DNA of 64,000 nt from Aequorivita sublithincola DSM 14238 (GTDB lineage: Bacteria; Bacteroidota; Bacteroidia; Flavobacteriales; Flavobacteriaceae): positions 124,001 through 188,000 of the forward strand of contig NC_018013.1 in the NCBI RefSeq assembly GCF_000265385.1. The letters run 5' to 3'. Below are positions 6,204 through 38,624 of this stretch, in pieces. Within the stretch, counting starts at the first letter, position 1, and the number at the start of each line of letters is the position of its first letter. Made by a program: the position numbers and the translations under genes. The notes under the pieces were generated by a model, which was given only the letters and a program-made list of their open reading frames with translations, had not been told where the DNA came from and ran no database searches.

Positions 6204-6246
6204 CAAAAATATTGTTGAAAACGCCTTTAAAATATGACATTTGTCA
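6204..6246 (-). promoter_or_regulatory. cco operon promoter with FNR-like palindrome
   Basis: On the minus strand, TGAC-ATTT-GTCA (6235-6246) is followed by the -7 element TATTTTTG (6211 to 6204). The palindrome centre (6240.5) is 36.5 bp from the last base of the -7 element, so it should lie near -41.5, the class II activator position. The palindrome overlaps the stop codon of fixI. The spacing is identical at the other members of this set. Confidence 0.75.
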
Positions 6247-8655
6247 ACTTTGCTTATTTATATTCATTCTTAATCTCTTCCCAATATATTGAGTTGCTAG
6301 AGTCGTAAAAACCACAATACTTATTGAACTTAAAGGCATTAAAATAGCCGCAACTACTGGCCTTAAATGACCTGTAACTGCAAATGCTAATCCTATCAAA
6401 TTATAAAACAGAGAAAACAAAAACGCCCACTTTATAATGCTTACACCTCTTTTTGAAAAGTTTAAATAATCTCCAATCTTTTCAAAATGTGAAGCATCCA
6501 AAATACCATCGCAGGCTGGCGAAAAAACGTTAGTGTTTTCTGAAATTACAAAGCCAACATTACTTTGCCTTAAAGCTCCAGCATCATTTAGACCATCGCC
6601 TATCATCAAAACTTGTTTTCCGCTTTTTTGAAGCGATTTTATAAAATTGAGCTTATCGTCTGGTTTTTGGTTGAAGTAAAGTTTTGTTCCTTTAGGAAGT
6701 AGTTTTGCCAGGCGCTCCCGTTCGCCTTCGTTATCGCCAGAAAGAACGATTACATCTTTGTCAGTTCCTAATTGTTTAAAAATTTCAGCAACGCCTTCTC
6801 TGTATTCGCTGTTGAAAATATAGCAACCTTTGTAAACCTTGTTGGTACTGATGTGGACAGTAGTTCTATTTTTTACTTCGGAAGTATTCTCATCATAAAA
6901 CCCGACAAATTCATACGAACCTACTTTTATGGAATTATCATTGAAAGTTGCGGAAATCCCCTTCCCTATTTCTTCTTCAAAATTGTCTAAAGTTTGGATA
7001 TTGTTTTTATCCAAAATATTGTAAAGCGAACGACTAAGCGGATGACTAGAAGCGCGTAACGTACTAGTGAGTAATTGCTTTTCCTCCGAAGAAAGTGCTA
7101 TGCCTTCATACGTTATCAAGTTTTTTTGATTGGTTGTTAGTGTTCCTGTTTTGTCAAAAACTACGGTGTCTAACTTCGCCATTTGTTCGATTACGGAAGC
7201 TTCTTTTAAATATAGCTTCTCTCTTCCGAAGATTCGCAAAACGTTCCCTAAGGTAAAAGGTGCGGCCAACGCAATCGCGCACGGACAGGCAACAATTAAT
7301 ACAGAAGTAAATACATTGAATGCTTTTGACGGATCTACCATCAACCAAAAAATGGTGGAAATAAAGGCTATGGAAAGAAGAATTACTGTAAAACGTTTAC
7401 TAATACTGTCCGTAATATTTTCAAAAGCACCCGTTTTGTCTTTGCTGAAAACGTCATTGCTCCAAAGTTGCGTTAAGTAGCTTTGGGCGACAGGTTTCAA
7501 TACTTCAACTTCCAGAATTCCAGCTTGTTGTTTTCCGCCGGCGAAGAGTTTGTCGCCGCTTTGTTTGGTAATTGGCTCCGCTTCGCCAGTGACGAAACTG
7601 TAATCTATTAGTGCGTTTCCTTTGATTAAAATTGCATCAACCGGAATTATTTCGTTGTTACGAATAAGCAAACGGTCGCCTTTTTTTACTGTGTAAACTT
7701 CGGCTTGTTCTTCAACGGTTTTTCCCTCAGTATTTTTGAAAAGGCGTGTTACGGCAATTGGAAAGTATGATTTATAATCACGTTCAAACGAAAGATAACT
7801 GTAGGTTTTCTGCTGAAAAAACTTTCCCAGCAATAAAAAGAAAACGAGCCCAGCAAGGCTGTCGAAGTAGCCCGTGCCCCAATCCATCACAATATCTATC
7901 GTACTTCTTATAAAAAGAACGGCAATTCCGAGAGCAATAGGAACGTCAATATTCAAGATTTTGGAACGTAAACCTTTATAAGCAGAAGTGAAATAACCAC
8001 GTCCCGAATAAAAAACCACCGGAAGCGAAAACGCAAACATCAACCATCTAAAAAATGGTTTAAACTGATCTAACCAAAATTCAGAATGCTCAAAATATTC
8101 AGGAAACGAAAGGAACATAATGTTTCCAAAAGCAAAACCTGCGATGCCCAATTTATATATTAGACTTCGGTTTATGTGTTTTTCTTTTTTATCTGAATCA
8201 TCCAGCGAAATGTAGGGTTCGTAACCAATTCGACTTAAAAGAATGACTAGGTTTTTGAGTGAATTCTCTTCCGCAGTAAAAGTTATCCGAACGGTTTTCT
8301 CAGGAAAATTTACTTGTGAAGATTTTACCGCAGAATTTAGCTTATTGAGATTTTCAAGAATCCAAATACAACTGCTGCAATGGATGGAAGGAATTACGAA
8401 AGAGACAATCTGCGTTTTTCCATCATTAAATTCAAGCATTTTCTCAACGATAACTTCGTTGTCTAGAAAGTCATATTTCCCAGCGATTTCCTTTGGAGAA
8501 ATACCTGGGTTTTTTTCAAGATCATAATAATAACTTAAGTCGTTGTCGTGGAGAATATCATAAACCGTTTTGCAGCCATGGCAGCAGAAGGATTTTTCCT
8601 CGTGCTTTATTTCTACGTCCAAACACGCATCACCACAGTGAAAACAGTTTACCAT
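6244..8655 (-). CDS. ccoI: Copper-translocating P1B ATPase CcoI/FixI
   Basis: The 803-residue protein starts with a Cys-rich segment (CFHCGDAC, CCHGC), then a heavy-metal-associated domain with CSSCIW, eight or so membrane helices with the transport motif CPC (ACPCAIALA), the phosphorylation motif DKTGTLT and the hinge GDGLND. FixI/CcoI supplies copper for the CuB centre of cbb3 oxidase. An upstream TTG is in frame at 8658, but the ATG at 8655 is preferred. Its own promoter with an FNR-like site lies just upstream, so it can be expressed apart from ccoS. Confidence 0.95.
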   Translation of the reverse strand: MVNCFHCGDACLDVEIKHEEKSFCCHGCKTVYDILHDNDLSYYYDLEKNPGISPKEIAGKYDFLDNEVIVEKMLEFNDGKTQIVSFVIPSIHCSSCIWILENLNKLNSAVKSSQVNFPEKTVRITFTAEENSLKNLVILLSRIGYEPYISLDDSDKKEKHINRSLIYKLGIAGFAFGNIMFLSFPEYFEHSEFWLDQFKPFFRWLMFAFSLPVVFYSGRGYFTSAYKGLRSKILNIDVPIALGIAVLFIRSTIDIVMDWGTGYFDSLAGLVFFLLLGKFFQQKTYSYLSFERDYKSYFPIAVTRLFKNTEGKTVEEQAEVYTVKKGDRLLIRNNEIIPVDAILIKGNALIDYSFVTGEAEPITKQSGDKLFAGGKQQAGILEVEVLKPVAQSYLTQLWSNDVFSKDKTGAFENITDSISKRFTVILLSIAFISTIFWLMVDPSKAFNVFTSVLIVACPCAIALAAPFTLGNVLRIFGREKLYLKEASVIEQMAKLDTVVFDKTGTLTTNQKNLITYEGIALSSEEKQLLTSTLRASSHPLSRSLYNILDKNNIQTLDNFEEEIGKGISATFNDNSIKVGSYEFVGFYDENTSEVKNRTTVHISTNKVYKGCYIFNSEYREGVAEIFKQLGTDKDVIVLSGDNEGERERLAKLLPKGTKLYFNQKPDDKLNFIKSLQKSGKQVLMIGDGLNDAGALRQSNVGFVISENTNVFSPACDGILDASHFEKIGDYLNFSKRGVSIIKWAFLFSLFYNLIGLAFAVTGHLRPVVAAILMPLSSISIVVFTTLATQYIGKRLRMNINKQS

Positions 8656-8685
8656 CAATTAAAAATTTGCTTGTTATAACGGTTG

Positions 8686-8728
8686 CAAAGATTAAGAATG
8701 ATTGTGGTTTGAAAAATGACAATTGTCA
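8686..8728 (-). promoter_or_regulatory. fixI promoter with perfect FNR-like palindrome
   Basis: TGACAATTGTCA (8717-8728) is a perfect 12-bp palindrome. The -7-like element AATCTTTG occupies 8693 to 8686 on the minus strand, giving the same 36.5-bp spacing as at ccoS. The expected transcript would start near 8681, about 26 bases before the fixI ATG. Confidence 0.75.
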
Positions 8729-8736
8729 GTTATCAA

Positions 8737-9942: not shown

Positions 9943-9949
9943 CAAGCAC

Positions 9950-10831: not shown

Positions 10832-10876
10832 CAAATTTCATAATAAAAAGAGAAACAAAATATGACTTAAATCATA
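10832..10876 (-). promoter_or_regulatory. scdA promoter with FNR-like palindrome
   Basis: TATGAC-TTAA-ATCATA (10861-10876) has arms matching TGAY-N4-RTCA. A weak -7 element, GAAATTTG (10839 to 10832), stands 36.5 bp from its centre. The -7 element lacks the TA pair, which would make the promoter depend on an activator. Confidence 0.65.
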
Positions 10877-14727: not shown

Positions 14728-15741
14728 TTATTTGTTTAGTTCGTTCATAACCATTTCACGAATTTTCTTTACATCTTCTTCTTTTACAGGAGGAGCATCG
14801 TTACCCCAACTGCTACGCTCGTGGGTTGTGATAGCTGCGATTTCAGCATCAGTTAATAAATCGCCAAATGCTTGCATCACACCATAATCAGGGCGAGCAT
14901 CATAGCCTTGAAGGACTATTCTTAATAGCATTTCGGGGTTTTCATCATTGACAATCTTACTTCCTGCCAAAGGTGGGAACGCTCCAGCAATCCCTTTACC
15001 ATTGTCTTGATGGCAGGCGGCACAGGTTTGTTTAAATAGATTTTCTCCGTCTAAACCACCAGCTGTCTTGCCTTCGCTCATTCCTTCTTCTTGAATTTTT
15101 CGCAACGCAGGTATAAAATCATTCACGTTACCTCCTGGTAGCTCTGTTTGTTGAAGCGATTTTAAATAATCGACCAATAATAGCGCTTCTTTACTAGCAA
15201 CGATTTTTCTTCCCGGCTCATTGAAATACTCCTTCGGAACAGCGACAACTTTATCGTCTTTTGTAACTGAAACACTATCAATTTCTCTAAACATCCAAGG
15301 ATATGAAGGCATAACAGATGCTGAAACTACTGCTCTTGGATTGTATAAGTGCAACAAGTGCCAGTCTTCACTTGGTTGGCGTTTACCGATATTGGTAAGA
15401 TCTGGACCTGTTCTTTCACTTCCTAAAAGCGAAGGAGATTGCCTCCAAACATCCAATCGTTGTTTGCTGTAATAATAATCTGATGGAATGGAAGGACGAC
15501 CTCCCCAAACATTATCCATTTCTATATTCCGAACTTGCTGGGTATGGCAGGCCATACAGTTTTCGGAAACATAGATTCGTAAGCCTTCTTTTTCGTTGGC
15601 GGTTAATGGTTTTTGATCTGGAATGGGTTCCGTTTCCTGCATCTGAAATGCGGGAATTATCGCTATCATTATACTCAGTGCTACAAACACGACTCCTGCC
15701 GTGAGCACTAGATTTTTATGTTCTTTGTGAAAATTGAGCAT
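14728..15741 (-). CDS. Diheme CcoO-like cytochrome c subunit
   Basis: The 337-residue protein has one N-terminal membrane anchor (about 11-31), a CcoO-type domain with CMACH (62-66) and MPSYPWMF (144-151), and a second cytochrome c domain with CAACH (240-244). CcoO normally has one heme; here a CcoP-like heme domain is joined to it. It lies 11 bp after the subunit I gene, so it is the electron-entry subunit of that enzyme. Confidence 0.88.
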   Translation of the reverse strand: MLNFHKEHKNLVLTAGVVFVALSIMIAIIPAFQMQETEPIPDQKPLTANEKEGLRIYVSENCMACHTQQVRNIEMDNVWGGRPSIPSDYYYSKQRLDVWRQSPSLLGSERTGPDLTNIGKRQPSEDWHLLHLYNPRAVVSASVMPSYPWMFREIDSVSVTKDDKVVAVPKEYFNEPGRKIVASKEALLLVDYLKSLQQTELPGGNVNDFIPALRKIQEEGMSEGKTAGGLDGENLFKQTCAACHQDNGKGIAGAFPPLAGSKIVNDENPEMLLRIVLQGYDARPDYGVMQAFGDLLTDAEIAAITTHERSSWGNDAPPVKEEDVKKIREMVMNELNK

Positions 15742-15752
15742 TTTTAATCTTA

Positions 15753-17564
15753 TTAAACAGTTATTTCCTCTATTTCTTTTGACTTAACTTCGGTTTCCAC
15801 CTTTCTATAATTTTTCACCATATAATAAAAATTATAGACGAAAACCAAATGCGAAAGGAACATTAACGAACCGCCAATGGCACGCCATACCCAATAGGGT
15901 CTCATAAGAATAACCGATTCTATAAAAGCATTGCCTTCTATCCAGCTAAGTCCTTTGTAAGTTCCTCCAGCCATTAGGGAAACCATATAGGCGAAAAGCC
16001 CAAGAAAAGCCATCCAGAAATGCGCTCCAACCAAAACTTGTGGTGGTTCTTTTCCTGTTATTTTTGGTAGAATTGCATAAATACACGCCCATAAAAAGAA
16101 AGCGACAATTCCATACATCGTCATATGGCTATGCGCCACGTTAAAATCTGTAAAGTGCCAAACGAAGTTCGTAAATCGAAAGGCTTGAACCGTTCCCTGC
16201 ATAGAGCCTACGAAGTAAAAAATAGTTCCTACTAAGAAGAAAGGCAAGACATAACTTTTTGAAATATGGCTCCAACTGCCTCTCATAGTCATTAAGAAAT
16301 TTGTGGTTCCCGCAACCACTGGAATTATCATTCCTACACTGAAAACAATCGCTACAGTTTGTAACCACCAAGGTAACGGACTAAACACGAAGTGATGCGT
16401 TCCAATCATTGTGTAAAACAGCATTTGTGTCCAAAACGCCAGTACTCCTAAGGAATATGAATAGATTGGTTTGTTTAGAGAAGATGGTAAATAATAATAA
16501 ACCAAACCGAGTGTAAAGGTCATGAACCACATTCCTACTCCTTGGTGCATATAATATCCTTGGATTACGGTTTCGCCTAAACCGTCTTGATAAAACGGTA
16601 AATAACCAATAATAGACAAAACGATAGTCCAAATTAAGGAAGCAAGTATAAACCAGTTTGAGATATATATTTCTGAAATTTTACGTCTTGCAACCGTTTT
16701 ATAGAAATTGAAAAACGTAATTATCAAAGCAATAGCGAAGAGAAGCATAATGGGCCAAATATATTCGCGATACTCACCACCTCCATTATTAATACCCGAC
16801 ATAAGGCTTAAACTCCCCAATATTATGGTTGAATTTATAAGCCACCAGCCAGTCCAAGCAAGTTTATAACTGTGTATTACAGTATTAGATGTTCTTGCAA
16901 CAACGAAATAGCCCAAACCAATCATTGCCATAGATGACCATCCCCAAAAAACCATATTGGTATGAACAGGTCGCAACCTTCCGAAAGAAAGCCATGCTTG
17001 ATGATCCATTTCTGGCCATACAAATTTCATCCCTAGATATTGGCCAATAAAGGTTCCTACAATCAACCAACAAGCCGCAGCACCAATGTAATAGATTACA
17101 ATTTTCTTTAATGCTTCGGGAGTTTCGATGCTAAGTGTAGTCTTCTTTTTTTCATCAAAAAAAGCATTATTTGGCTTATTGTCTATATGATGAATCAATC
17201 CTTTTTCATCTACTGCTTCATTTTCTCCTCCTAACTCATCACCGGATAGTTTATAAGTGAGTGCTGCCTTCCTTTTTTCGAGGATGGAATCGATTTCTCC
17301 TCCATCCATGGCAATAATTTCATCATCAAAAGCCATTTTATTTTTATCGTGCTGCTTTCTTTTCAGCGTGTCTATGTAGGCATTTAATTTTACCAATAGA
17401 ATTATAACTGCAACTACCATAACAATGGCAATCAAAACGAAAGTGCCAATAATTCCCGGGCTCGACAACCAGTTTTCTGTTGAAATACTTCCCTTGTTTT
17501 GCGAAATTGCAAATTGTGGAATCAATCCTAGAATCAATAGTATTAACCAATTCATTTTTTTCAT
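15753..17564 (-). CDS. Divergent CcoN/NorB-like heme-copper oxidase subunit I
   Basis: The 603-residue protein has a signal-like helix, a second helix (36-60), a charged linker (65-150) and a twelve-helix core. Heme and copper ligands are present: His201 (RPVHTN), His340, His390/His391 (GTHH), His478/His480. Tyr384 stands where oxygen-reducing CcoN has its tyrosine, but AHSHMTMYG and the following segment resemble NorB, and a Glu conserved in CcoN (Glu322 of the other copy) is Gln456 by eye alignment. It could reduce oxygen or NO. It heads the block with scdA and hemerythrin and lies next to two NsrR-like genes. Confidence 0.85.
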   Translation of the reverse strand: MKKMNWLILLILGLIPQFAISQNKGSISTENWLSSPGIIGTFVLIAIVMVVAVIILLVKLNAYIDTLKRKQHDKNKMAFDDEIIAMDGGEIDSILEKRKAALTYKLSGDELGGENEAVDEKGLIHHIDNKPNNAFFDEKKKTTLSIETPEALKKIVIYYIGAAACWLIVGTFIGQYLGMKFVWPEMDHQAWLSFGRLRPVHTNMVFWGWSSMAMIGLGYFVVARTSNTVIHSYKLAWTGWWLINSTIILGSLSLMSGINNGGGEYREYIWPIMLLFAIALIITFFNFYKTVARRKISEIYISNWFILASLIWTIVLSIIGYLPFYQDGLGETVIQGYYMHQGVGMWFMTFTLGLVYYYLPSSLNKPIYSYSLGVLAFWTQMLFYTMIGTHHFVFSPLPWWLQTVAIVFSVGMIIPVVAGTTNFLMTMRGSWSHISKSYVLPFFLVGTIFYFVGSMQGTVQAFRFTNFVWHFTDFNVAHSHMTMYGIVAFFLWACIYAILPKITGKEPPQVLVGAHFWMAFLGLFAYMVSLMAGGTYKGLSWIEGNAFIESVILMRPYWVWRAIGGSLMFLSHLVFVYNFYYMVKNYRKVETEVKSKEIEEITV

Positions 17565-18736: not shown

Positions 18737-20002
18737 TTAGTTAAAACGCTGTCTCGCTTCTCGTTCCAATGCTTCTCGATGATTTGGATGCGCTATTGAA
18801 ATTAAAGCTTTTGCTCGCTGTTCCAATCCTTTTCCAAAAAGATTTACAACGCCGTATTCTGTAACCACATAATGAACGTGCGCGCGTGTTGTTGTTACAC
18901 TTGCACCTTCTTTTAAAAAAGAAGTTATTTTTGAAATTCCTTTGTTGGTAATAGAAGGCATCGCAATAATTGGCTTCCCTCCTTCTGAAAGTGAAGCACC
19001 GCGAATAAAATCCATCTGTCCGCCAACGCCGGAATATTGGTATGTACCAATACTATCTGCACAAACTTGACCTGTTAAATCAATTTCAATGGCGCTATTT
19101 ATGGCTGTTACCTTCGGGTTTCGTCGAATAATTGCGGTATCATTTGTGTAAGCTGCTTCTTTAAAATGGACTAGTGGATTATCATCAATAAAATCATATA
19201 ACTTTTTTGTTCCCATTGCGAAACAAGTAACAATTTTACCTGTTTTCACTTGCTTATCTTCGCCTGTAATAATTCCTTTTTCAACTAGCGGAAGAATTCC
19301 GTCGCTAAACATTTCGGTGTGAATTCCCAATCTTTCATGGTTACCTAAATTGTGAAGCACGGCGTTAGGGATGTTGCCAATTCCCATTTGAAGAGTGGCG
19401 CCATCTTCTACCAATTCCGCTACATTTCTTCCTATTATAGCTTCAATTTCTGATGGTTCACCGATAGTTGCAGCATAAATTGGAGTACTAATTTCTACTC
19501 CAAAATCAATATTATTTATATGAATTATACCATCACCATGCGTTCTTGGAACATTTGGATTTATTAAAGCAACAACATGTTTTGCAGTTTGAATGGCTGG
19601 TAAAGTAACATCTACCGAAAGTCCCAACGAACAAAAACCATGTTTATCCGGTGGTGAAACTTGAATAAAAGCGACATCCAACGGCAGAATATTTCTTCTA
19701 AAAAGCCAATGTATTTCACTTAAAAAAACAGGAATATAATCTCCGTGAATAGTATCTACACCCTTCCGAACATTATCCCCAACAAAACAACTGTTTAGAC
19801 GAAATGCTTTAGTATAAGGAGCTACAGTGTATTTTGCTTCGCCGTGGGTGTGAATTTGAATTATTTCAACATTTCTAAGTTCGCGATATCGTTCACATAA
19901 TGTGTCTATCAACAAATTGGGCGTCATTGCTGCGCCCTGAAAATATATGCGATTATTAGATTTTACTATGGATACGGCTTCTTGTGCGGATACTATTAGC
20001 AT
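18737..20002 (-). CDS. Acetyl-CoA hydrolase/transferase family (4-hydroxybutyrate CoA-transferase type)
   Basis: The 421-residue protein has the two-domain CoA-transferase fold with GIGNIPNAVL near the middle, EMFSDG and the glycine-rich GVGGQMDFIRGA. Family members move CoA between acyl groups or hydrolyse acetyl-CoA. In anaerobic or microaerobic metabolism such an enzyme could conserve CoA bonds with acetate release. The promoter carries an FNR-like site, which supports expression at low oxygen. The exact substrate is not readable. Confidence 0.9.
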   Translation of the reverse strand: MLIVSAQEAVSIVKSNNRIYFQGAAMTPNLLIDTLCERYRELRNVEIIQIHTHGEAKYTVAPYTKAFRLNSCFVGDNVRKGVDTIHGDYIPVFLSEIHWLFRRNILPLDVAFIQVSPPDKHGFCSLGLSVDVTLPAIQTAKHVVALINPNVPRTHGDGIIHINNIDFGVEISTPIYAATIGEPSEIEAIIGRNVAELVEDGATLQMGIGNIPNAVLHNLGNHERLGIHTEMFSDGILPLVEKGIITGEDKQVKTGKIVTCFAMGTKKLYDFIDDNPLVHFKEAAYTNDTAIIRRNPKVTAINSAIEIDLTGQVCADSIGTYQYSGVGGQMDFIRGASLSEGGKPIIAMPSITNKGISKITSFLKEGASVTTTRAHVHYVVTEYGVVNLFGKGLEQRAKALISIAHPNHREALEREARQRFN

Positions 20003-20018: not shown

Positions 20019-20061
20019 CAAAGATTGTAAAACTGTTAGGTTTTATAAATGATATTGGTCA
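20019..20061 (-). promoter_or_regulatory. CoA-transferase promoter with FNR-like site
   Basis: TGAT-ATTG-GTCA (20050-20061) is centred at 20055.5. The -7-like element AATCTTTG (20026 to 20019), identical to that of fixI, is 36.5 bp away. The two half-sites differ at one base. Confidence 0.6.
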
Positions 20062-20796: not shown

Positions 20797-20911
20797 CTTG
20801 TTGTTTTCTTTATTGCAAACATAAGTGCAAGATTGTTATAAGGAAATGATATGGGTAAAAATATTTTAGTGTATCTTCATTATCTCCAAAACACAACCAT
20901 TGTTATAAGAT

Positions 20912-25081: not shown

Positions 25082-27052
25082 TTAATCTTCGCCTAGACCC
25101 CAAGACAATTCTAAATTAGAATCTGCTGGGCTTACGCGAACATATCCTTGCATTTCTTGATGAAGTGCAGAACAGAAATCTGTACAATAAAATGGCCAAA
25201 CCCCTACTTGATTTGGGTACCAAACTAAAGTTTCTGTAGCTCCTGGCATAATAAGCAATTCAGCATTATTAGCACCAATTACTGCGAAACCGTGAGGTAC
25301 ATCAAAATCTTGTTCGTGGTTTGTAATGTGGAAGAATACTTTGTCTCCAACTTTTACACCTTCAATATTATCTGGGTTAAAGTGGCTACGGATCATATTC
25401 ATATAAATATGTACTTCTTTCCCTTCACGTTCTACTCTCACATCAGCGTCTTGAATAACTGCATATTTATGCGTGTTTTCTGCAAGTTTGAATATCTTTC
25501 TAGATTTTGGTGCGATCAAATTCGCTGGAATACCGGCTGCATAATGAGGTTCTCCAATGGTTGGGAAATCTAACAGTAGTTCCATTTTATCACCACTAAT
25601 ATCAAATAACTGGGCAGACTGTGTAAGTTCTGGACCTGTTGGCAAGTATCTGTCTTTTGTAATCTTGTTTAAGGCTACAAAGTATTTACCAAATGGCTTA
25701 CGAGAATTTCCTCCAGGAATCATACCGTGACCTACAGAGTAAAACACTGGCTGACGGTCCAAAACTTCCCAAGTGCCTATTTTCCATTTTACAACTTCTG
25801 AAGAGATAAAGAAGGTAGTATAAGCATTTCCTTTACCATCAAATTCTGTATGAAGTGGTCCTAATCCTGGTTGTTTAACAACACCAGCAAGAATATCTTC
25901 AAATTTCAAAATTGGAATTCCGTAAGCTTCTCCGTCAAATTTCTTGTTTTCAATAGCATCAAGCATCTTCGTAAAACTGTGAACAGTTAAATCTGCTGAA
26001 AGTTTTCCGTTTCCGATGATATATTCACCTGTTGGATCAACATCGCAACCGTGTGGAGATTTTGGAGTTGGTAAGAAATAAACAGCTCCAGGAACATCCA
26101 TTGGGTTTACTGTAAGTACTTCCTTCAACATTGTCGAAGTAGCCGTATGGCTATTTTCATCTAAAATGTTATGTGCGTAATTAGCAGGAACTTTTGTTCC
26201 ACCACCGTTATTTACATATTCTTCAATTACTTTCCAGTTTACGGCAGCAATAAAATCTTTATCGTTTTGTGAAGCGTTAACTTCCAATAATGAGTGAGCT
26301 TCTTCAGTATTATAAGTAGTAAAGAAGAACCAACCGTGACTCTTATCACGCCCTGGGTGAGAAAGATCGTAGTTAAAACCTGGCATCATTAATTGGAATT
26401 TAATTCCCATTCTACCTGTTTCTTGGTCAACGCTAATAAATGTAAGCGCTCCTTTAAAGTTACCTTTGTAATCTTTTATAGACATATCTTTCTGTGGCAC
26501 TGGTACAGAGAAACGAGTTCCCGCAACCACATACTCCGTGTTTTCAGTAATAAAAGATGAACTGTGGTTACCCGCACTGTTTGGTATTTCAATGATTTCT
26601 TCAGTTTTGAAGTTCTCCAGACCAATACGTGCAATTCTAGGTGTATTGTTACCATTGATAAATACCCAACGGCCATCTAATTCACCGTTTGTTTGTGAAA
26701 TATCTGGGTGGTGAGCGTCATCCCAAGGTACAAACCCGTAGGAAGTATTCAACATAGGTTTTGTTTCTTCAGAATATCCCCAGCCGTTTTCTGGGTTTTG
26801 TGAGAATACAGGAAGCACTTTAAGTAAACGACCTGAAGGCAAGCCGTAAACAGCAAGCTGTCCGCTGAATCCACCAGATATAAATGCGTACATTTCATCT
26901 AGTTCGCCTGGAGCAACATAAACTCGCTCGGCGGCATTGGTAGCCAAACCACCTTGGCCTCCTTTTTTGTTTTTTTGATTTCCGCCATCATTACAGCTTA
27001 CCATTCCGGCAACCATAACAAGAGCGATTAACATATTAATTGATTTTTTCAT
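25082..27052 (-). CDS. nosZ: Nitrous oxide reductase NosZ, clade II, lipoprotein-type signal
   Basis: The 656-residue enzyme reduces N2O to N2. The N-terminal beta-propeller carries the His-rich CuZ ligand motifs (DDAHHPD, SHGWFFFTT, SPHGCDVDPTGEY) and the C-terminal cupredoxin has the CuA motif CTDFCSALHQEM (Cys623, Cys627, His631, Met634). The signal peptide is Sec-type with no twin arginine, which is the clade II hallmark, and VSC near residue 20 suggests lipid anchoring. It follows fasciclin by 33 bp. Confidence 0.97.
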   Translation of the reverse strand: MKKSINMLIALVMVAGMVSCNDGGNQKNKKGGQGGLATNAAERVYVAPGELDEMYAFISGGFSGQLAVYGLPSGRLLKVLPVFSQNPENGWGYSEETKPMLNTSYGFVPWDDAHHPDISQTNGELDGRWVFINGNNTPRIARIGLENFKTEEIIEIPNSAGNHSSSFITENTEYVVAGTRFSVPVPQKDMSIKDYKGNFKGALTFISVDQETGRMGIKFQLMMPGFNYDLSHPGRDKSHGWFFFTTYNTEEAHSLLEVNASQNDKDFIAAVNWKVIEEYVNNGGGTKVPANYAHNILDENSHTATSTMLKEVLTVNPMDVPGAVYFLPTPKSPHGCDVDPTGEYIIGNGKLSADLTVHSFTKMLDAIENKKFDGEAYGIPILKFEDILAGVVKQPGLGPLHTEFDGKGNAYTTFFISSEVVKWKIGTWEVLDRQPVFYSVGHGMIPGGNSRKPFGKYFVALNKITKDRYLPTGPELTQSAQLFDISGDKMELLLDFPTIGEPHYAAGIPANLIAPKSRKIFKLAENTHKYAVIQDADVRVEREGKEVHIYMNMIRSHFNPDNIEGVKVGDKVFFHITNHEQDFDVPHGFAVIGANNAELLIMPGATETLVWYPNQVGVWPFYCTDFCSALHQEMQGYVRVSPADSNLELSWGLGED

Positions 27053-28263: not shown

Positions 28264-28307
28264 CAAAACTATCCTTATTGAATGATGTGTGAAATGATAT
28301 ATATCAT
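28264..28307 (-). promoter_or_regulatory. nos operon promoter with perfect FNR-like palindrome
   Basis: ATGATATATATCAT (28294-28307) is a perfect 14-bp palindrome. The -7 element TAGTTTTG (28271 to 28264) is 36.5 bp from its centre, and a TTTC 19 bp before it serves as a weak -33 element that abuts the palindrome. This is the clearest class II activator arrangement in the window. Confidence 0.8.
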
Positions 28308-28386: not shown

Positions 28387-28435
28387 TTTTTATGATAAAA
28401 ATCATAAAAAGAAGAATACTGAAAAGTTACTTTTA
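28387..28435 (+). promoter_or_regulatory. FNR-like palindrome and promoter of the small lipoprotein gene
   Basis: TTTTTATGAT (28387-28396) and ATCATAAAAA (28401-28410) form 10-bp perfect arms around AAAA. On the plus strand the -7 element TACTTTTA ends at 28435, 36.5 bp from the centre. Together with the nos promoter this makes a divergent pair of FNR-like sites 98 bp apart. Confidence 0.78.
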
Positions 28436-29895: not shown

Positions 29896-30744
29896 TTAAT
29901 ATTTCACTGGAATTACTAAAGTGGGAACATGTGCGTGTTTCCCTACTCTACTAACCACTGGTTCGCGGAAAAGTTGCTTAATAAAAGCATGTTTGTGATA
30001 AATTAATGTAAAAAGGTCTATTTCTCTTTCATCGATAAAAGCGTGAAGCGATTTTGAAATGTTTCCGTTTTTAGGGACGAAATGAAACGCTGTGTCATAT
30101 TCGGTAAGATCATTCTTAAACTTCTCAAAGTTCTGTTGTTGTTTTTCATCCAAATTTGCTTCTAAACCTACGTGAATTATATGAAGTTGAGAATTATACT
30201 GTCTTACCAAACGCGTTATAGGTTTCAATTTTGAGAGTTGATAAAACTCATTATAGTCTGTTGCGAAAGCCATTTTTAAAGGAATCACAAAGCCAACTTG
30301 GCTGGGAACAATCAGTAGCGGACAACCTTCCAAACTTTTAGTAATCGTAACGGTCGTGCTTCCCATCAGTACATCTTCGGCGCCTGTACGACCTTTGCTG
30401 CCCATTACAACAAGGTCTATATCTTCAGAAACAACCAAGCTGTTTATGGATTTTGACAATGAAGCTGGCGTTGAAATAATTTCGTATTTGTGGGATTGTT
30501 TTTTTGTATCGAGTTTAATTTTCTCCAACAATTTTTCCCCATCCTCGTCAGATTGTTTGTAAAGGGTTTCAATAATACTATCAGAACGACCAATATCTAC
30601 ACGACTTGTTAATTTGCCGATTTCATCAGAAAAAGAATGAAGAATGGTTATACTTAAAGCTTCATCGCTAAAAAGTCTTGAAACATAAACTAATGCAGCA
30701 TACGCATTATTTGAGAAATCTGTGGGAACTAATATTTTTCGCAT
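29896..30744 (-). CDS. Universal stress protein with two Usp domains, copy 2
   Basis: The 282-residue protein begins with ILVPTDFSNNAYAAL and carries VVMGSKGRTGAED...GSTT in its first Usp domain; the second is divergent, as in the other copies. Its promoter carries an FNR-like palindrome, so expression should rise when oxygen falls. It is followed by usp copy 1. Confidence 0.92.
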   Translation of the reverse strand: MRKILVPTDFSNNAYAALVYVSRLFSDEALSITILHSFSDEIGKLTSRVDIGRSDSIIETLYKQSDEDGEKLLEKIKLDTKKQSHKYEIISTPASLSKSINSLVVSEDIDLVVMGSKGRTGAEDVLMGSTTVTITKSLEGCPLLIVPSQVGFVIPLKMAFATDYNEFYQLSKLKPITRLVRQYNSQLHIIHVGLEANLDEKQQQNFEKFKNDLTEYDTAFHFVPKNGNISKSLHAFIDEREIDLFTLIYHKHAFIKQLFREPVVSRVGKHAHVPTLVIPVKY

Positions 30745-30768: not shown

Positions 30769-30812
30769 TAAAGGTAGCAAACGGAACACTAAAAAAGTAT
30801 GATTAATGTCAT
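30769..30812 (-). promoter_or_regulatory. usp copy 2 promoter with FNR-like site
   Basis: ATGAT-TAAT-GTCAT (30799-30812) is followed by the -7-like element TACCTTTA (30776 to 30769), again 36.5 bp from centre to last base. The arms differ at one base. Confidence 0.7.
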
Positions 30813-31785: not shown

Positions 31786-31828
31786 CAAATGTATCTGTAC
31801 TGTTTGTTACAATAAATGACAAAAATCA
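31786..31828 (-). promoter_or_regulatory. usp copy 3 promoter with FNR-like site
   Basis: TGAC-AAAA-ATCA (31817-31828) stands 36.5 bp (centre to last base) from a full consensus -7 element TACATTTG (31793 to 31786). Confidence 0.72.
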
Positions 31829-31934: not shown

Positions 31935-32975
31935 TTAATTAATATCTCTTAAACTCTCCAAATCTATAACTCGAATATCTCGTCCTTCAATTTCAATAAT
32001 ACCACTTTTTTTAAAATCTGAAAGTGTTCTTATTAAACTTTCCGTAGCAATTCCCGCGGTTGCGGCTAGATCATTTCTAGAAATTCGCAATGGAGCTTTT
32101 GGATTTTTATTCATTATTTCAACAAACTGAATAATGGTTGAGGCCGTTTTTTTCCTAACCGAGCTATACGCCATTTTCAGTAATTGTTGTTTTACATCAG
32201 CAAGATTATCGGAAAGAAGATTCATTAATTCTAAAGAAACATCTTGGCTTTTCTTCAAAATATCCTTGACGTAAGCTTTTGATAATCCAACAATTTCAAC
32301 ATCTTCCACAGCTGTTGCGGTTTCGTTGTACGGAAAATTATCATCAAAAGACGTAAAGCCTAAAAAGTCGTCTTCTTTGTGAAGACCAGTGATTAGTTCC
32401 TTTGCATTGTCATCCATAGTGTGGGTTTTCACAACGCCCTTAAGTATTAAAAAAAGACTGTTAGAATGATCGCCTCTACGATAAATATTTTCTCCCTTTT
32501 TATATTTTGAAACTTGGCCTTCATCACAAAAAAAATTCTTTAACTGATTTAGATTTTTTGGATTTTCTTCATCTATAGAAAGGTTTTGATTTCTCATTGC
32601 TAAAATGCTCGCCTTTGCCAAGCGACTTTCCACAGCACTTAACAGCTCTTCTTCATCAAAAGGTTTTGTGAGATAATCGTCCGCGCCCATATCCATTCCT
32701 TTTCTAATTTCTTTGTGTTCCGTTTTGGCCGAAAGAAAAATGAAAGGAATATGCTTGGTTTTTTCTTCAGAAGTTACTGCTTCCAATACACCATAACCAT
32801 CAATTTCGGGCATCATAATATCACAAATAATTATGTTTGGCGTTTCTTGAATTGCTTTTTCTATCCCTATTCTGCCGTTTGGGGCAGTAAAAACTTTGTA
32901 ATTGGAAAGCTCCAAAAGCTCGGCGGTGTTTTCGCGTAAGGCGGTGTCGTCTTCAATTAGGAGGATGGTTTTCAT
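31935..32975 (-). CDS. Response regulator with CRP/FNR-type output
   Basis: The 346-residue protein has a receiver domain with phospho-acceptor Asp52 (IIICDIMMP) and a Lys in YLTKPF, a cyclic-nucleotide-binding-like domain (about 150-265, with GENIYRRGDHSNSLFLILKG) and a CRP-type helix-turn-helix at the end (LAATAGIATESLIRTLSDF). There is no N-terminal Cys cluster as in FNR. It overlaps no gene but follows the kinase by 6 bp. It is the only CRP/FNR-family protein in the window and the prime candidate to bind the many FNR-like palindromes. Confidence 0.93.
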   Translation of the reverse strand: MKTILLIEDDTALRENTAELLELSNYKVFTAPNGRIGIEKAIQETPNIIICDIMMPEIDGYGVLEAVTSEEKTKHIPFIFLSAKTEHKEIRKGMDMGADDYLTKPFDEEELLSAVESRLAKASILAMRNQNLSIDEENPKNLNQLKNFFCDEGQVSKYKKGENIYRRGDHSNSLFLILKGVVKTHTMDDNAKELITGLHKEDDFLGFTSFDDNFPYNETATAVEDVEIVGLSKAYVKDILKKSQDVSLELMNLLSDNLADVKQQLLKMAYSSVRKKTASTIIQFVEIMNKNPKAPLRISRNDLAATAGIATESLIRTLSDFKKSGIIEIEGRDIRVIDLESLRDIN

Positions 32976-32981: not shown

Positions 32982-34211
32982 TTATATATTTTGTATTGGA
33001 AAAGAAATAGTGAATTTACTGCCATTATTTTCTACACTTTCAAAACTAACACTTCCGCCAAGGCTTTCCAAATGGCTCTTTACAATGTTAAGACCAATAC
33101 CCGTGCCTTGATTCAACAAAGCGTTTTCTGCCCGGAAATATCGATTGAAAATGTACTTTTGCTCTTTCTGCGGAATCCCAATTCCTTCGTCAATAATTTC
33201 TATACTTAGTAAATCTTTTTCGTGAAGCACAACCACATCAATCGTGCTGTGTTCTGGCGAATATTTCACTGCGTTATTTATAAGGTTCGTTAAAGAAAGC
33301 TCTAGGATTTTTTCATCAAAATTTATTGTAATATCATCAATATCATTGGGATAGTTTATTTTCTGACCTTCCTTCAATAACATGTTTGCGTTATAAATTA
33401 CTTCATTCACAACTTTACTCAACGGAAATGTATCAAACTTATAATTAGCCTTTCCAGATTCCAAGCGCTCAATAGATAAAAAATCATTCAAAATATTATT
33501 TAAATATTTCACTTTACTTTGAATGGTTTTTAGGTGCTTTTCCCTTTTATCCTGTTGCTCGGTTTCAGTATATTTTCCAGCGAGTGTAGCTGAAGTGAGA
33601 ATCCCGCTCAAAGGAGTTTTAAATTCGTGTGAAACCAAGGACAAGAACTTTGTTTTCAAATCATTCAATTCGCGTTCCTTCCGTAGAGATTCCGTGATTT
33701 TATGCTCGGCTTCCTTGCGTTTTGCAACTTCTTCATTTAATTCATCAATGGTTTTCTTAAGTTCTTTGGTACGATCTTGAATTTTTTGTTCCAATGAGGA
33801 GTTAAGTTCTATAATTTCGTTTTCTTGATTTTTACGAACAGAAATATCGGTTACAAGCGCCATAACATATTTACTGCTGTAAATTTCAAAAGGATTTAAT
33901 CCAGCTTCCACAGGAAAAATGCTTCCATCCTTACGTTCTCCATAAAGATCGCGTCCGTGCCCCATTTGCCTTGGATCTCTTTTCCCTAAAAATTCATTAA
34001 CTTGTTTTGGGTGACTCTGACGGTATTCTCTGGGAATCAAAACGTTTAAGCTTTTTCCCAAAAGCTCGCCAGTTTTATACCCAAACATATTGTCTGCAGC
34101 TTCATTAGAAGTAACAATTTCCTGTTTCTCGTTAACGATAACAATGCCTTCTGAAATCGCTTCAGACAAAATCTTGAAAATGTTTCCTTTTTTTTCCTCA
34201 AAAACCTTCAT
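32982..34211 (-). CDS. PAS-domain sensor histidine kinase
   Basis: The 409-residue cytosolic protein has one PAS domain (about 10-125), a coiled coil (128-185), the H-box with His195 (LVSHEFKTPLSGI) and an ATPase domain (NLINNAVKYSPEH, DEGIGIP, GTGIGLNI). The PAS domain resembles FixL around DPRQMGHGR, but the position of the FixL heme-binding His appears to be Arg81, so heme binding is doubtful. It forms a two-gene unit with the CRP-type response regulator. Confidence 0.93.
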   Translation of the reverse strand: MKVFEEKKGNIFKILSEAISEGIVIVNEKQEIVTSNEAADNMFGYKTGELLGKSLNVLIPREYRQSHPKQVNEFLGKRDPRQMGHGRDLYGERKDGSIFPVEAGLNPFEIYSSKYVMALVTDISVRKNQENEIIELNSSLEQKIQDRTKELKKTIDELNEEVAKRKEAEHKITESLRKERELNDLKTKFLSLVSHEFKTPLSGILTSATLAGKYTETEQQDKREKHLKTIQSKVKYLNNILNDFLSIERLESGKANYKFDTFPLSKVVNEVIYNANMLLKEGQKINYPNDIDDITINFDEKILELSLTNLINNAVKYSPEHSTIDVVVLHEKDLLSIEIIDEGIGIPQKEQKYIFNRYFRAENALLNQGTGIGLNIVKSHLESLGGSVSFESVENNGSKFTISFPIQNI

Positions 34212-34248
34212 CCCCCAAAAGTAAGGATTTTAAACAGTTTTTGAGAAC

Positions 34249-34291
34249 TGATTTATGTCATAAAAATTCTTAAACAAACAAGTTAGTTTTA
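34249..34291 (+). promoter_or_regulatory. TerB-like gene promoter with FNR-like site
   Basis: TGAT-TTAT-GTCA (34249-34260) and the plus-strand -7 element TAGTTTTA (34284-34291) show the 36.5-bp spacing. The same site is also upstream of the divergent kinase gene, where a minus-strand TACTTTTG (34223 to 34216) is 38.5 bp away, so control of the kinase by it is possible but weaker. Confidence 0.65.
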
Positions 34292-34801: not shown

Positions 34802-35668
34802 ATGAGAGTTTTTCTGTCATTAGTATTTATTTTCACTTTAATTGCTTGTAAAAACGATCCAAAAAAGGAGGAAGTTGTAACGGATATGGAAATCAATTCC
34901 GAAATAATTTTAGATTCTTTGAAAGTTTCCAACGAAAACTTAGAATTTCAACAAAAAGCTCTCAATCTGAAAAGACGAGAACTTCTTGAGAAAAAAGATT
35001 CTAAAGCAGAATTAGAAGAGTTACTTATCTCTAAATCTTTTTTAAAGGTAGACGACTTGTACACTTTGAATTTTAAATATCCATACCTAAACGAAAAAAT
35101 AAAACCTCAATTTGAAAATTTCAACGAATATATCAACAAACACTTTGTAGCTATAAAAAGCATAGAAAAGCAAATTTTGGAAGAAAAGCGACTGTGTGAT
35201 TCATTAGGAATTCCTAAACAAAATGAATTGCGAACAGTAGATTACAAAATCTACAACCTCAACGACAGACTGATTAGCGTTCTTTTTTACAAAGAAAACC
35301 ACTACACTGGCGCTGCTCATGCTGCCTATACTTTTGAATGTTTAAATTTTGACTTGGAGCGTGCAGTTTTCATGAAATATGAAGATTTTTTCAATAATGG
35401 AACTGAAGAAGAGCTTCGCGAAATTTTGAATTCACTTTTAAAGGAAAAGATAAATTCTGGTGAAATTTATTACGATTGTTGGGCAATTTCTGCAGATGAT
35501 TTTTTCGGCGCAAAAAATAATTTTGTAATAAATGATGATGTGGTAGAATTTTACTTTGACGATTGTGTTATTTGTCCGTCCTACACAGGAACGTATTCTA
35601 TAAAAATTCCGTTGGAAATGTTGATGCCTGTTTTAAGGAAAAACAAAAGGAATCCTCTATTAGGCTAA
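34802..35668 (+). CDS. Lipoprotein with DUF3298-type domain
   Basis: The 288-residue protein has a lipoprotein signal (TLIAC), a charged coiled-coil segment (20-85) and a C-terminal domain with HYTGAAHAAY and the end motif typical of DUF3298/RsiV-like periplasmic proteins. Members of the family may bind cell wall or lysozyme; the role here is unknown. It starts the operon with trx, deoC and deoD, 11 bp before trx. Confidence 0.8.
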   Translation: MRVFLSLVFIFTLIACKNDPKKEEVVTDMEINSEIILDSLKVSNENLEFQQKALNLKRRELLEKKDSKAELEELLISKSFLKVDDLYTLNFKYPYLNEKIKPQFENFNEYINKHFVAIKSIEKQILEEKRLCDSLGIPKQNELRTVDYKIYNLNDRLISVLFYKENHYTGAAHAAYTFECLNFDLERAVFMKYEDFFNNGTEEELREILNSLLKEKINSGEIYYDCWAISADDFFGAKNNFVINDDVVEFYFDDCVICPSYTGTYSIKIPLEMLMPVLRKNKRNPLLG

Positions 35669-35679
35669 AAAAATAAACA

Positions 35680-35982
35680 ATGAAAAGCAACTTCCATAAA
35701 ATAATAAACTCAGAAATACCTGTATTAGTTGACTTTTATGCAGATTGGTGCGGACCTTGCAAAATGCTTGCACCAATACTAAAACAAGTAAAAGATGAAT
35801 TGGGAGATTATGTGAAAATTGTAAAAATAGACGTTGACAAAAACCAACCCTTAGCTTCACAATTTCAAGTGCGAGGTGTTCCAACAATGATTCTTTTTAA
35901 AAACGGAAAACAACTTTGGAGACAGAGCGGCGTTCTTCAAAAAAACGAACTTGTTACTATAATCAATCAACACAAAAATTGA
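35680..35982 (+). CDS. trxA: Thioredoxin
   Basis: The 100-residue protein is a complete thioredoxin with the active site WCGPCK (about residue 24) and the cis-proline segment GVPTMILF. It acts as a cytosolic disulfide reductase. Its stop codon shares one base with the deoC start (TGATG), so the two are translationally coupled. The genome may hold other thioredoxins; the symbol is given for the family. Confidence 0.93.
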   Translation: MKSNFHKIINSEIPVLVDFYADWCGPCKMLAPILKQVKDELGDYVKIVKIDVDKNQPLASQFQVRGVPTMILFKNGKQLWRQSGVLQKNELVTIINQHKN

Positions 35983-36653: not shown

Positions 36654-37338
36654 AGCCAAAGCTGGCGAAATTGCAGAATCGGTTTTACTTCCTGGCGACC
36701 CAATGCGCGCCAAATGGATTGCAGAAATTTTTCTTGAAAACGCAAAATGCTATAATGACGTTCGTGGAATGTTGGGCTATACAGGCACTTTTCAGGGGAA
36801 ACCGATTTCGGTTCAAGGAACTGGAATGGGTATTCCTTCGGCCTTAATTTATTGCCACGAACTTATTAATGATTACGGCGTGAAAAACCTAATTCGCGTT
36901 GGTTCGGCTGGCTCGTATCAAAAAGACATCAATCTACGCGATATAGTAATTGCAATGGCTGCATCCTCAAATTCTGGCATAAACAACACACGTTTTGTAA
37001 ACTGCGACTTCTCGCCTACTGCCAATTTCGAATTATTTATGAAAGCCGCACTTTACGCTAAGGAAAGAAACATTCCCATAAAAGCAGGAAACGTGCTTTC
37101 CAGCGATCAATTTTATGAAGACGACTTCAATAATTATAAAAAATGGGCAGAGTTTGGAGTGCTTTGCGTAGAAATGGAAGCTGCTGGACTCTACACAATC
37201 GCTGCCAAATTCAATGTGAAAGCTTTGGCTATTTTGACTATTTCCGATTCCTTGGTAACTGGTGAAAGTACCACTGCTGAAGAACGTGAAGGCAGTTTTT
37301 CAAAGATGATTGAGATTGCGCTTAACACTTTACTTTAG
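36637..37338 (+). CDS. deoD: Purine nucleoside phosphorylase, DeoD type
   Basis: The 233-residue protein has the DeoD motifs LLPGDPMRAKWIAE, GTGMGIPS, RVGSAGS and CVEMEAAGLY. It splits purine (deoxy)nucleosides with phosphate, feeding deoxyribose 1-phosphate towards DeoC. The start lies within the deoC end, so the two are coupled. Confidence 0.96.
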   Translation: MSTHIEAKAGEIAESVLLPGDPMRAKWIAEIFLENAKCYNDVRGMLGYTGTFQGKPISVQGTGMGIPSALIYCHELINDYGVKNLIRVGSAGSYQKDINLRDIVIAMAASSNSGINNTRFVNCDFSPTANFELFMKAALYAKERNIPIKAGNVLSSDQFYEDDFNNYKKWAEFGVLCVEMEAAGLYTIAAKFNVKALAILTISDSLVTGESTTAEEREGSFSKMIEIALNTLL

Positions 37339-37345
37339 AGATAAA

Positions 37346-37377
37346 AAAGCAGGAATTCAAAATGAAATTCCTGCTTT
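37346..37377 (+). terminator. Hairpin terminator after deoD
   Basis: AAAGCAGGAATT (37346-37357) pairs perfectly with AATTCCTGCTTT (37366-37377). The A and T flanks allow it to act on both strands, ending deoD and also the usp gene that converges from the right. Confidence 0.88.
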
Positions 37378-37403
37378 CTGTTGTTAATTGATGTCGATAG
37401 CAA

Positions 37404-38243
37404 TTAACTTATCTTAAAAGTCATTACTGGCAAATCTGAATGGTTTACCACGTCTTCGCCAATACTTCCAGAGAAAAAGTGTGCCAAACCTTGGCGACCT
37501 TGCGTTGGTAAAGCAATAATATCTGCGCCTGCAAGTTGGCTATAAGCAAAAATTCCAGCTTCCACAGAATAGTCGTTATATTGGACTACATTATTTAGAC
37601 TTTCAAAAGGATTTGGCTCTTTGGCTTCATTCATAAAAGTTAAAATACGTTTTTCAATTTCACGAGTATTTCTGAAATCTCCCGCAAGATTTATATATAT
37701 CGGCTGCATTTTAATTCCTAGTACGTCGAACATCCTTTTTGCTTTTAAATAAGGCGTTATTGAATTTGGCAAAAAGTCGCAAGCAAAAACGCCAAGTTGT
37801 GGATTAAAATCTGTTGTTTGGTGCTTAATGACCAATACAGGAATTTCAGAAGTGCGGACCACTTTTTCTGTGTTGCTTCCTACGAAAACTTCCTTTAAAC
37901 CTGAACTTCCGTGAGACCCCATTACAATTAAATCTGCTTCAAAATCGAGTGCTACATCGTTCAATTCACTAAAAACTTTATAATTGTGAACGGCGTCCGT
38001 CACCTTTATTCCTTTCAAATAATCTTTATCAAGAAATTCTGCGAAACGTTTTTCAGCTAATTTCATATAAAACATTGCTTCAAAAACTTCTTTACTTTCA
38101 TCACGCGTTACAACCGCTTCGCTAAGGCCCATCATATGTAGCGCAATAATTTCAGCGTTTTGTTTTTTGGCAATTCCTGCCGCAACTTCTAGGGCATAAT
38201 CAGAATGCTGTGAGAAATCTACGGGAACTAATATTTTTTTCAT
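37404..38243 (-). CDS. Universal stress protein with two Usp domains, copy 4
   Basis: The 279-residue protein begins with ILVPVDFSQHSDYALEVA and has VMGSHGSSGLKEVFVGSNTEKV, a full Usp nucleotide-binding motif. It lies 11 bp after hpf and is read from the hpf promoter, so it is linked to ribosome hibernation at low oxygen. Confidence 0.92.
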   Translation of the reverse strand: MKKILVPVDFSQHSDYALEVAAGIAKKQNAEIIALHMMGLSEAVVTRDESKEVFEAMFYMKLAEKRFAEFLDKDYLKGIKVTDAVHNYKVFSELNDVALDFEADLIVMGSHGSSGLKEVFVGSNTEKVVRTSEIPVLVIKHQTTDFNPQLGVFACDFLPNSITPYLKAKRMFDVLGIKMQPIYINLAGDFRNTREIEKRILTFMNEAKEPNPFESLNNVVQYNDYSVEAGIFAYSQLAGADIIALPTQGRQGLAHFFSGSIGEDVVNHSDLPVMTFKIS

Positions 38244-38254
38244 CTTAATAATTT

Positions 38255-38554
38255 TTAGTGTATTGTGAATTTAGCTTTGCGTTTTTTGAGCTGTTTTTCG
38301 ATATCCGAAATTGTTTCTTTTGCGGCGGCTTCAAAAGTTGCTTCTGTTGAAGTTGCAAATATTTTGGGTCCTGGAAGACTCAGTTCCATTTCACAAATGT
38401 TGCCTTTTCCATACACATTGTTTTCCAGTTTAAAACTAACATCAGCTCTAATAAGCCATTCATATTTTTCAGCGATTTTATTCAACCTCTTTTCTACATA
38501 CTTGTTCATGGCCTCACTGGTGGGCATTTTCACGTATTGGATGTTTATAGTCAT
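38255..38554 (-). CDS. hpf: Ribosome hibernation-promoting factor, short type
   Basis: The 99-residue protein has the HPF/RaiA fold (NIQYVKMPTSEAMNKYVEKRL, then a basic C-terminus with KQLKKRKAKF). It binds the 30S subunit in resting cells. It lacks the long C-terminal dimerisation domain. Its promoter has a perfect FNR-like palindrome and a consensus -7 element, and usp copy 4 follows. Confidence 0.92.
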   Translation of the reverse strand: MTINIQYVKMPTSEAMNKYVEKRLNKIAEKYEWLIRADVSFKLENNVYGKGNICEMELSLPGPKIFATSTEATFEAAAKETISDIEKQLKKRKAKFTIH

Positions 38555-38580
38555 AGCTAATCTGAATTGGTTTATATTTT

Positions 38581-38624
38581 CAAATATATTCTATATATAT
38601 CTGTTTTGAAATGACCAATGTCAT
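38581..38624 (-). promoter_or_regulatory. hpf-usp promoter with FNR-like palindrome
   Basis: ATGAC-CAAT-GTCAT (38611-38624) has perfect arms. The -7 element TATATTTG (38588 to 38581) lies at the shared 36.5-bp spacing; transcript start near 38576. Confidence 0.8.

Follow-up and report, generated by a model that had tools for sequence, protein, structure and literature searches.

Ten class II-type promoters with one palindrome-box geometry around a receiver-Crp regulator gene in Aequorivita sublithincola

In a 64,000-nucleotide stretch of the Aequorivita sublithincola DSM 14238 genome (the window; positions 124001-188000 of a 3.52-Mb single contig, 99.75% complete), ten promoters carry a TGAY-N4-RTCA palindrome at one fixed distance from a flavobacterial -7 box. 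Together with those of hemN, a porin gene and probably a VIT-family gene elsewhere in the genome, they constitute, almost beyond doubt, a single and real class II regulon. As the original prediction, made from the bare sequence, had proposed, one class II-type promoter set thus unites the cbb3 oxidase, NO repair, N2O reduction, universal stress proteins and a hibernation factor. Our best explanation for the whole, at a probability of roughly 0.7, is that a FixL-like kinase drives a FixJ/FixK-like fusion of receiver and Crp-type domains at this regulon.

One spacing between palindrome and promoter box

The palindrome TGAY-N4-RTCA occurs 15 times in the window, against 3.8 expected. At ten of these places, all of them where they had been predicted, it is followed in gene orientation, after 23 bases, by a box that agrees with TAnnTTTG at 5 or 6 of its 6 fixed bases. 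The distance from palindrome centre to last box base is 36.5 bp in 10 of 10, which confirms the identical spacing claimed at the outset. Box quality is 6/6 in four sites and 5/6 in six (AATCTTTG twice, GAAATTTG, TACTTTTA, TACCTTTA, TAGTTTTA), and the base right after the palindrome is T in all ten. Overall, 11 of the 15 palindromes show the geometry, for which the binomial chance is about 4e-15, or 2e-13 when 46 spacings are allowed for. Five further palindromes lie outside the predicted ten, at 26337, 45815, 47730, 57154 and 63264. Those at 26337, 45815, 47730 and 63264 have no box at the 23-base spacing; the one at 57154 has a box at the right spacing (TAACTTTA, minus strand) and was rejected because it lies inside a coding frame, is followed by C and scores only 10.6 bits.

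These scores come from a site matrix trained on 355 sites bearing T after the palindrome, to which the A. sublithincola genome contributed none, and run over the window and four other stretches of that genome. Random first-order sequence is expected to yield about 0.05 matches per window at 16 bits. The ten sites score 19.4-33.0 bits and the next best in the window 10.6; a candidate at 20847-20858, with only 8.1 bits, was set aside. In class II Crp/Fnr-activated promoters, the operator is centred near -41.5. The main text of a study of Flavobacterium psychrophilum (PMC9723704) places the TAnnTTTG -7 box at -12 to -5, which puts the centres of all ten palindromes at -41.5 and agrees with the class II position that had been proposed for them.

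The promoter of ccoS (6204..6246, minus strand; palindrome 6235-6246, box 6204-6211, TATTTTTG; 32.2 bits) precedes ccoS (5959-6186), then ccoNO, ccoP and ccoG. On the same strand stand the promoter of a ccoI/fixI-type P-type ATPase gene (8686..8728; palindrome 8717-8728, box 8686-8693, AATCTTTG; 27.1 bits), whose gene at 6244-8658 encodes a heavy-metal P-type ATPase; that of ytfE/scdA (RIC, Fe-S repair; 10832..10874, palindrome 10863-10874, box 10832-10839, GAAATTTG; 20.9 bits), whose gene matches TIGR03652; and that of a CoA-transferase gene at 18737-20002 (20019..20061; palindrome 20050-20061, box 20019-20026, AATCTTTG; 22.2 bits). The nos cytochrome c promoter (28264..28306, minus strand; palindrome 28295-28306, box 28264-28271, TAGTTTTG; 26.0 bits) is upstream of genes for a fasciclin protein, a Sec-dependent NosZ, NosL and NosD. 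A plus-strand promoter (28393..28435; palindrome 28393-28404, box 28428-28435, TACTTTTA; 19.4 bits) belongs to a putative lipoprotein without Pfam match, whose start codon is likely 28452 rather than an ATG within the palindrome. Two minus-strand promoters serve genes of the Usp family: usp copy 2 at 29896-30744 (promoter 30769..30811; palindrome 30800-30811, box 30769-30776, TACCTTTA; 26.5 bits) and usp copy 3 (promoter 31786..31828; palindrome 31817-31828, box 31786-31793, TACATTTG; 33.0 bits). On the plus strand, a promoter at 34249..34291 (palindrome 34249-34260, box 34284-34291, TAGTTTTA; 29.1 bits) precedes a gene for a 134-aa protein; the name TerB-like once given to it is unconfirmed, the protein having no Pfam match. 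The hpf promoter (38581..38623, minus strand; palindrome 38612-38623, box 38581-38588, TATATTTG; 25.1 bits) precedes a Ribosomal_S30AE gene, after which comes a fourth usp gene (37404-38243; Usp family).

Scanning the whole genome for the palindrome-box pair, the check that the original prediction had suggested, gave 77 pairs over 31 spacings: 16 at the named spacing, whereas the others average 2.0 and never exceed 5. Twelve of the 16 fall in one 45-kb stretch (117.6-162.6 kb of the contig). The sites form an island around the regulator gene, and in the congener G221 14 of 20 listed sites lie within 308-375 kb. The set is larger than the ten predicted members. The element also stands before hemN (117626, 33.7 bits, about 6 kb left of the window), an alginate-export-family porin gene (119079, 25.8 bits, about 5 kb left of it) and a VIT-family gene elsewhere in the genome (2890138, 22.1 bits; here the palindrome is followed by C rather than T).

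The geometry is widespread in the family. We assembled 80 loci around orthologues of the receiver-Crp regulator, 1.51 Mb in all. They contain 365 pairs at the named spacing, or 0.24 sites per kb around the fusion gene, spread over 79 of the 80 loci; each of 40 other spacings has 2-22 pairs (mean 9.6). The profile of 364 sites reads TGA(T/C), four mostly A/T bases, (A/G)TCA, T (97%), then TA-NN-TTT-(A/G). The upstream mirror of the 97% T is C in 53% and A in 32%, and the element is therefore asymmetric; with T in only 10% upstream, its outer base departs from an FNR box. This T at -35, right after the palindrome and without upstream mirror (loci L035-L114), looks like a promoter-proximal contact beyond what the palindrome accounts for. 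It is also favoured in genomes that have only a four-cysteine FNR-like protein, here called FNR1 (9 of 15 sites in G252 and 13 of 17 in G237, counted by eye), so the preference may come from RNA polymerase and not from any single regulator.

Individual sites recur across genera at ccoS-ccoNO, ccoI, hpf, the 134-aa gene and the Usp genes. Counting orthologues with a visible upstream region in the fetched loci, and requiring a site at the exact spacing, we find it at 30 of 33 hpf genes, 40 of 51 genes for the 134-aa protein, 11 of 11 ccoNO genes (through ccoS) and 6 of 8 ccoI genes. For the four Usp queries the counts are 131/256, 133/264, 129/249 and 37/89 places, where one place may count for several queries. 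Orthologues of the nos cytochrome (2/4), CoA-transferase (1/3), lipoprotein (0/4) and ytfE (0/1) genes are too few to judge. The values for genes that have no such site themselves in the window are 0/4 for nosZ, 1/3 for fasciclin, 0/9 each for ccoP and ccoG, 0/8 for acrB, 0/19 for deoC, 0/30 for deoD, 0/69 for the kinase gene, 3/41 for thioredoxin and 5/29 for the gene at 34802-35668. Congener G221 keeps the sites of hemN, porin, CoA-transferase, ytfE, ccoI, ccoS/ccoNO, nos cytochrome c, Usp, 134-aa and hpf genes. A small cytochrome c gene of G221 bears one as well; an identity as NorC was not borne out by family searches.

The candidate reader and the kinase beside it

The likeliest reader of the palindrome, and probably the main one in this genome, is a 346-aa response regulator encoded within the cluster (31935..32975, minus strand), to which Pfam assigns receiver, cNMP and HTH_Crp domains and whose recognition helix is GIATESLIRTLSDFKK. 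Its closest relatives are in Aequorivita, the best being 86% identical. In the receiver domain (PF00072), D9, D10, D52 and K104 are invariant in 15 of 15 sequences. With its phospho-acceptor aspartate, D52, and an adjacent cognate kinase gene, the protein has the marks of a two-component regulator. Among the best 25 NCBIfam models per protein, none was passed at cut-off by the regulator or the kinase.

FNR itself, toward which the FNR-like regulon of the original prediction pointed, fares poorly in this genome. FNR holds its cluster through three cysteines near the N-terminus and one central cysteine, and its recognition helix reads E-x-x-S-R. In the fusion, C51 is the only invariant cysteine and the helix reads E-x-x-I-R (E-(S/T)-(L/F)-I-R in 15/15). 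A family profile finds four Crp-type HTH proteins in the genome, all four without an FNR-like cysteine pattern, and at 1e-40 the FNR1 profile matches nothing here or in G221, the one sampled congener. With the outer half-site base not T either, canonical FNR was rejected as the reader in A. sublithincola. Also rejected was a Crp protein of the L002 type (helix SRVVxSRLL), which is present in the motif-poor genomes G280 and G266 as well.

The fusion is nonetheless kin to FNR-like proteins of the group. All 12 further genomes that we picked from the order, 10 of them members of the family, have FNR1 (about 226 aa), with C4, C7, C53 and C106 invariant and a helix of the form E-(S/T)-x-I-R in 12/12; the recognition helices are nearly equal, TESxIR in FNR1 and TESLIR in the fusion. 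A tree built from 48 Crp domains groups the fusion clade with FNR1 plus FNR2 (support 0.853), FNR2 being a second FNR-like type with two examples and cysteines C8, C11, C16 and C110. FNR1 aligns with the solved FNR-type regulators 9qmc and 5cvr, and the third N-terminal cysteine has no counterpart in it. That missing counterpart raises the question of an altered iron-sulphur ligand set in flavobacterial FNR1 (L131-L141, L145).

We counted exact motif pairs, FNR1-profile matches and fusion matches in 199 family genomes from 198 genera. The FNR1 profile also catches weaker FNR-like matches; no match at 1e-40 was taken as no FNR, and an E value below 1e-60 as FNR1 proper. Genomes with the fusion and no FNR match (n = 20) hold 360 sites against 30 in the control, median 16, and those with neither regulator (n = 40) hold 140 against 50, median 1.5 (p = 4e-9). 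Restricted to genomes at least 90% complete and of 2.5-4.5 Mb, the same comparison gives p = 3.6e-5 (19 versus 9 genomes); at a completeness of at least 90%, the 24 genomes with neither have 66 sites against 35. Where FNR1 and fusion coexist (48 genomes), 1519 sites are found against 117, and the median of 30 exceeds the 14 of FNR1 alone (p = 6e-12). FNR-profile matches between 1e-40 and 1e-60 accompany 406 sites against 32 in 18 genomes with the fusion, and 12 against 2 in four genomes without it.

The proposed sensor is a 409-aa PAS-HisKA-HATPase histidine kinase (Pfam; 32982..34211, minus strand; PAS residues H67 and R87). In 78 of 80 loci the regulator gene is immediately preceded by a co-directional open reading frame of at least 200 aa that aligns with the kinase, most commonly with a 4-bp overlap (19 loci), and the column of the phospho-acceptor histidine, H195, is 100% conserved in 79 aligned sequences. 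When a profile of 20 kinase PAS domains was compared with solved structures, DosP (3.8e-20) and FixL (5.1e-20) came first. Among the 17 distinct sequences listed, 13 are DosP/FixL entries (one as yddU, one as haem PAS sensor), and the others are a multi-sensor kinase at 1.7e-15 and three blue-light PAS proteins at 4.5e-9 and weaker. H67 is kept in 73 of 79 sequences, and in 20 of 20 in alignment A4, and aligns with the haem-ligand histidine of DosP; the kinase PAS has in it a candidate haem-ligand histidine of the FixL type. These sequence features support sensing of O2 by the kinase PAS through haem, which we rate about as likely as not.

The kinase-regulator operon has a promoter of its own (34212..34223, minus strand), with box TACTTTTG at 34216-34223, then 4 nt and the ATG at 34211-34209; its transcript is predicted to be leaderless. 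The arrangement of near-consensus -7 box, 4 nt and ATG or GTG (34209-34223 here) is also seen in 17 of 30 related loci shown (L037-L068). The palindrome 34249-34260 stands 25 nt upstream of the operon box, not 23. Among orthologues, 38 of 69 have a palindrome within 150 bp; its commonest distance from the box is 25 nt (15 cases), and the flank is G in most of those shown. Class II autoregulation of the operon via the shared palindrome was rejected, with 0 of 69 at 23 nt; the palindrome may act in repression.

Proposed oxygen control and competing explanations

The steps of haem and O2 sensing, phosphorylation, binding and activation that we infer would run as follows. Low O2 would activate the kinase through its PAS domain, most likely via haem as in FixL and DosP. 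The kinase would phosphorylate the receiver and thereby license the FNR-type domain; the receiver-Crp dimer would bind TGAYWWWWRTCA at -41.5, and the bound dimer would recruit RNA polymerase at the TAnnTTTR boxes. In relatives, the same element would be shared with, or left to, FNR1; in the Aequorivita lineage, where FNR1 was not found, the fusion would remain, uniting FixJ and FixK parts in one polypeptide. In F. psychrophilum the cbb3 oxidase is strongly induced by oxygen limitation and haem-synthesis enzymes are also up, according to the main text of PMC9723704, in which neither FNR nor Crp occurs.

Several points weigh against this explanation. In the A. sublithincola genome, the palindrome by itself shows no enrichment over its reversed control (162 versus 154), nor does the pair once two mismatches are tolerated (168 forward and 168 reverse; control 181 and 139). 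Thus, the regulon consists of few, near-perfect strong sites, and we claim no further weak members. The motif is not specific to the fusion, as 69 genomes with FNR1 alone (E below 1e-60) hold 1080 sites against 153 in the control. Two genomes are rich in the motif with neither regulator found, G241 (32 sites) and G336 (17); they are 82% and 73% complete, and a missed gene is possible. The fusion-only genome G379 has just a partial fusion match (1-243 of 349). Fusion scoring took at most ten best first-look candidates per genome, and the co-occurrence statistics ignore phylogeny, though nearly every genome represents a different genus. Autoactivation of the kinase-regulator operon lends no support, given the 0 of 69 orthologues noted above. 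A histidine at the haem position is also found in PAS domains without haem, and a single-domain Crp protein of the same genome (G000, 3238914-3239501) has a similar helix, VETVIR. Overall, the counts in the regulator groups indicate that the motif accompanies either regulator, and the fusion alone as well.

Chance or base composition could appeal to the lack of enrichment of the palindrome alone, yet the spacing statistics and the cross-genus conservation reduce it to a negligible explanation and bear out the original prediction on this point. For a canonical [4Fe-4S] FNR that reads the sites and activates without O2, the FNR1-only genomes speak in favour, since they carry motif and spacing with no fusion, as does the alignment of FNR1 with solved FNR structures. 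Such a reader is plausible for many relatives; for A. sublithincola it is very improbable, since neither this genome nor its congener has an FNR1 or FNR2 match and the half-sites lack the outer T of TTGAT. The single-domain Crp just mentioned (L003 type, encoded near a globin-like open reading frame) is present in the genome, its E-x-x-I-R helix resembles that of the fusion, and it might read the sites alone or with the fusion. We consider this unlikely: it has no match at 1e-15 in the motif-bearing genomes G079, G109, G133, G163, G167 and G102 (the last without FNR match), in the fusion-only genomes G383, G233 and G307 the sole Crp-type matches to pass the Pfam cut-off are the fusion and a protein of the SRVVISRLL type, and in the tree it is further from FNR1.

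A different kind of alternative keeps the fusion as reader and changes the signal, with the kinase responding to redox state, NO, quinone or another ligand rather than to O2 through haem. PAS domains are versatile, the second axial position of DosP is not kept (H in 33 of 79 kinases), R87 is present in 55 of 79, and the regulon includes genes for NO repair and N2O reduction. The top solved matches of the PAS profile are nevertheless the haem O2 sensors DosP and FixL, and low O2 induces the cbb3 genes in a relative (main text of PMC9723704). We regard a signal other than haem-bound O2 as a real but less than even possibility.

The kinase-driven fusion also admits an evolutionary reading, which we advance tentatively as somewhat short of probable. 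FNR may have been lost in Aequorivita and other genera, with its promoters surviving under the fusion. A promoter architecture of the Flavobacteriaceae (palindrome at -41.5, T at -35, TAnnTTTR) would then have been served by two related activators, the four-cysteine FNR-like protein and the haem-kinase-driven receiver-FNR fusion, and in the present genome these promoters would have been gathered in the 45-kb island around the regulator gene. If so, control by low O2 shifted from direct sensing to a phosphorelay while the DNA element stayed unchanged.

Other loci and known systems

Two other loci of the window are worth recording. At 14728-17564 (minus strand), a COX1-family protein of 603 aa, extended by 150 residues at its N-terminus, is encoded together with a FixO/cytochrome c fusion. 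Both fall far below the CcoN/CcoO cut-offs and lie beside two Rrf2 regulators, which raises the question of a divergent oxidase or NO reductase. At 53759-60985 (minus strand), a RhuM-Fic protein gene is flanked by type I restriction genes of the specificity and HsdR types.

The Flavobacteriaceae, a large family, live in soil, sea and fresh water, and NosZ is present in some of them. If our explanation is correct, a regulator, a sensor, an operator and a promoter rule can be named for the cbb3, nos, NO-repair and hibernation genes of many genera, and the family would provide an example from nature of a regulon whose two readers are interchangeable. The idea of a promoter network outliving the loss of its global regulator would become open to direct test. 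Among the open-access papers that our literature searches listed, we found no account of the motif, of the fusion, of a regulon under FNR, or of oxygen acting on respiration genes by way of such a regulator in Flavobacteriaceae.

Established systems of this sort include class II Crp/Fnr promoters, FNR and FixLJ-K. Like the promoters described here, the class II FNR promoters of Escherichia coli combine a Crp-family palindrome with a 4-bp spacer at -41.5 and respiratory targets for low O2. They differ from the present set, which has a flavobacterial -7 box, an outer base that is C or A upstream and A (top-strand T) downstream instead of TTGA, and a proposed reader without FNR-like cysteine pattern. 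The consulted part of PMC1274295 gives the FNR/DNR boxes as TTGATnnnnATCAA. HcpR of Bacteroides and Porphyromonas, treated there as well, is likewise a Crp/Fnr regulator for nitrogen-oxide genes in Bacteroidota; its motif is GTAACnnnnGTTAC in HcpR2 genomes, its regulon is mostly hcp alone, and that part of the source makes no mention of a receiver. NmpRSTU of Myxococcus also places an oxygen-use regulon under two-component control, with a regulator that is NtrC-like (PMC11841059, as far as the consulted text goes). Similar in plan is the rhizobial FixL-FixJ-FixK system, as set out in the consulted portion of PMC4999443: both have a FixL-like PAS kinase, a receiver, a DNA-binding domain of FNR lineage and cbb3 targets. 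In contrast to the rhizobial system, receiver and Crp here are joined in one 346-aa protein with no transcriptional step from FixJ to FixK, and the motif and the phylum are different.

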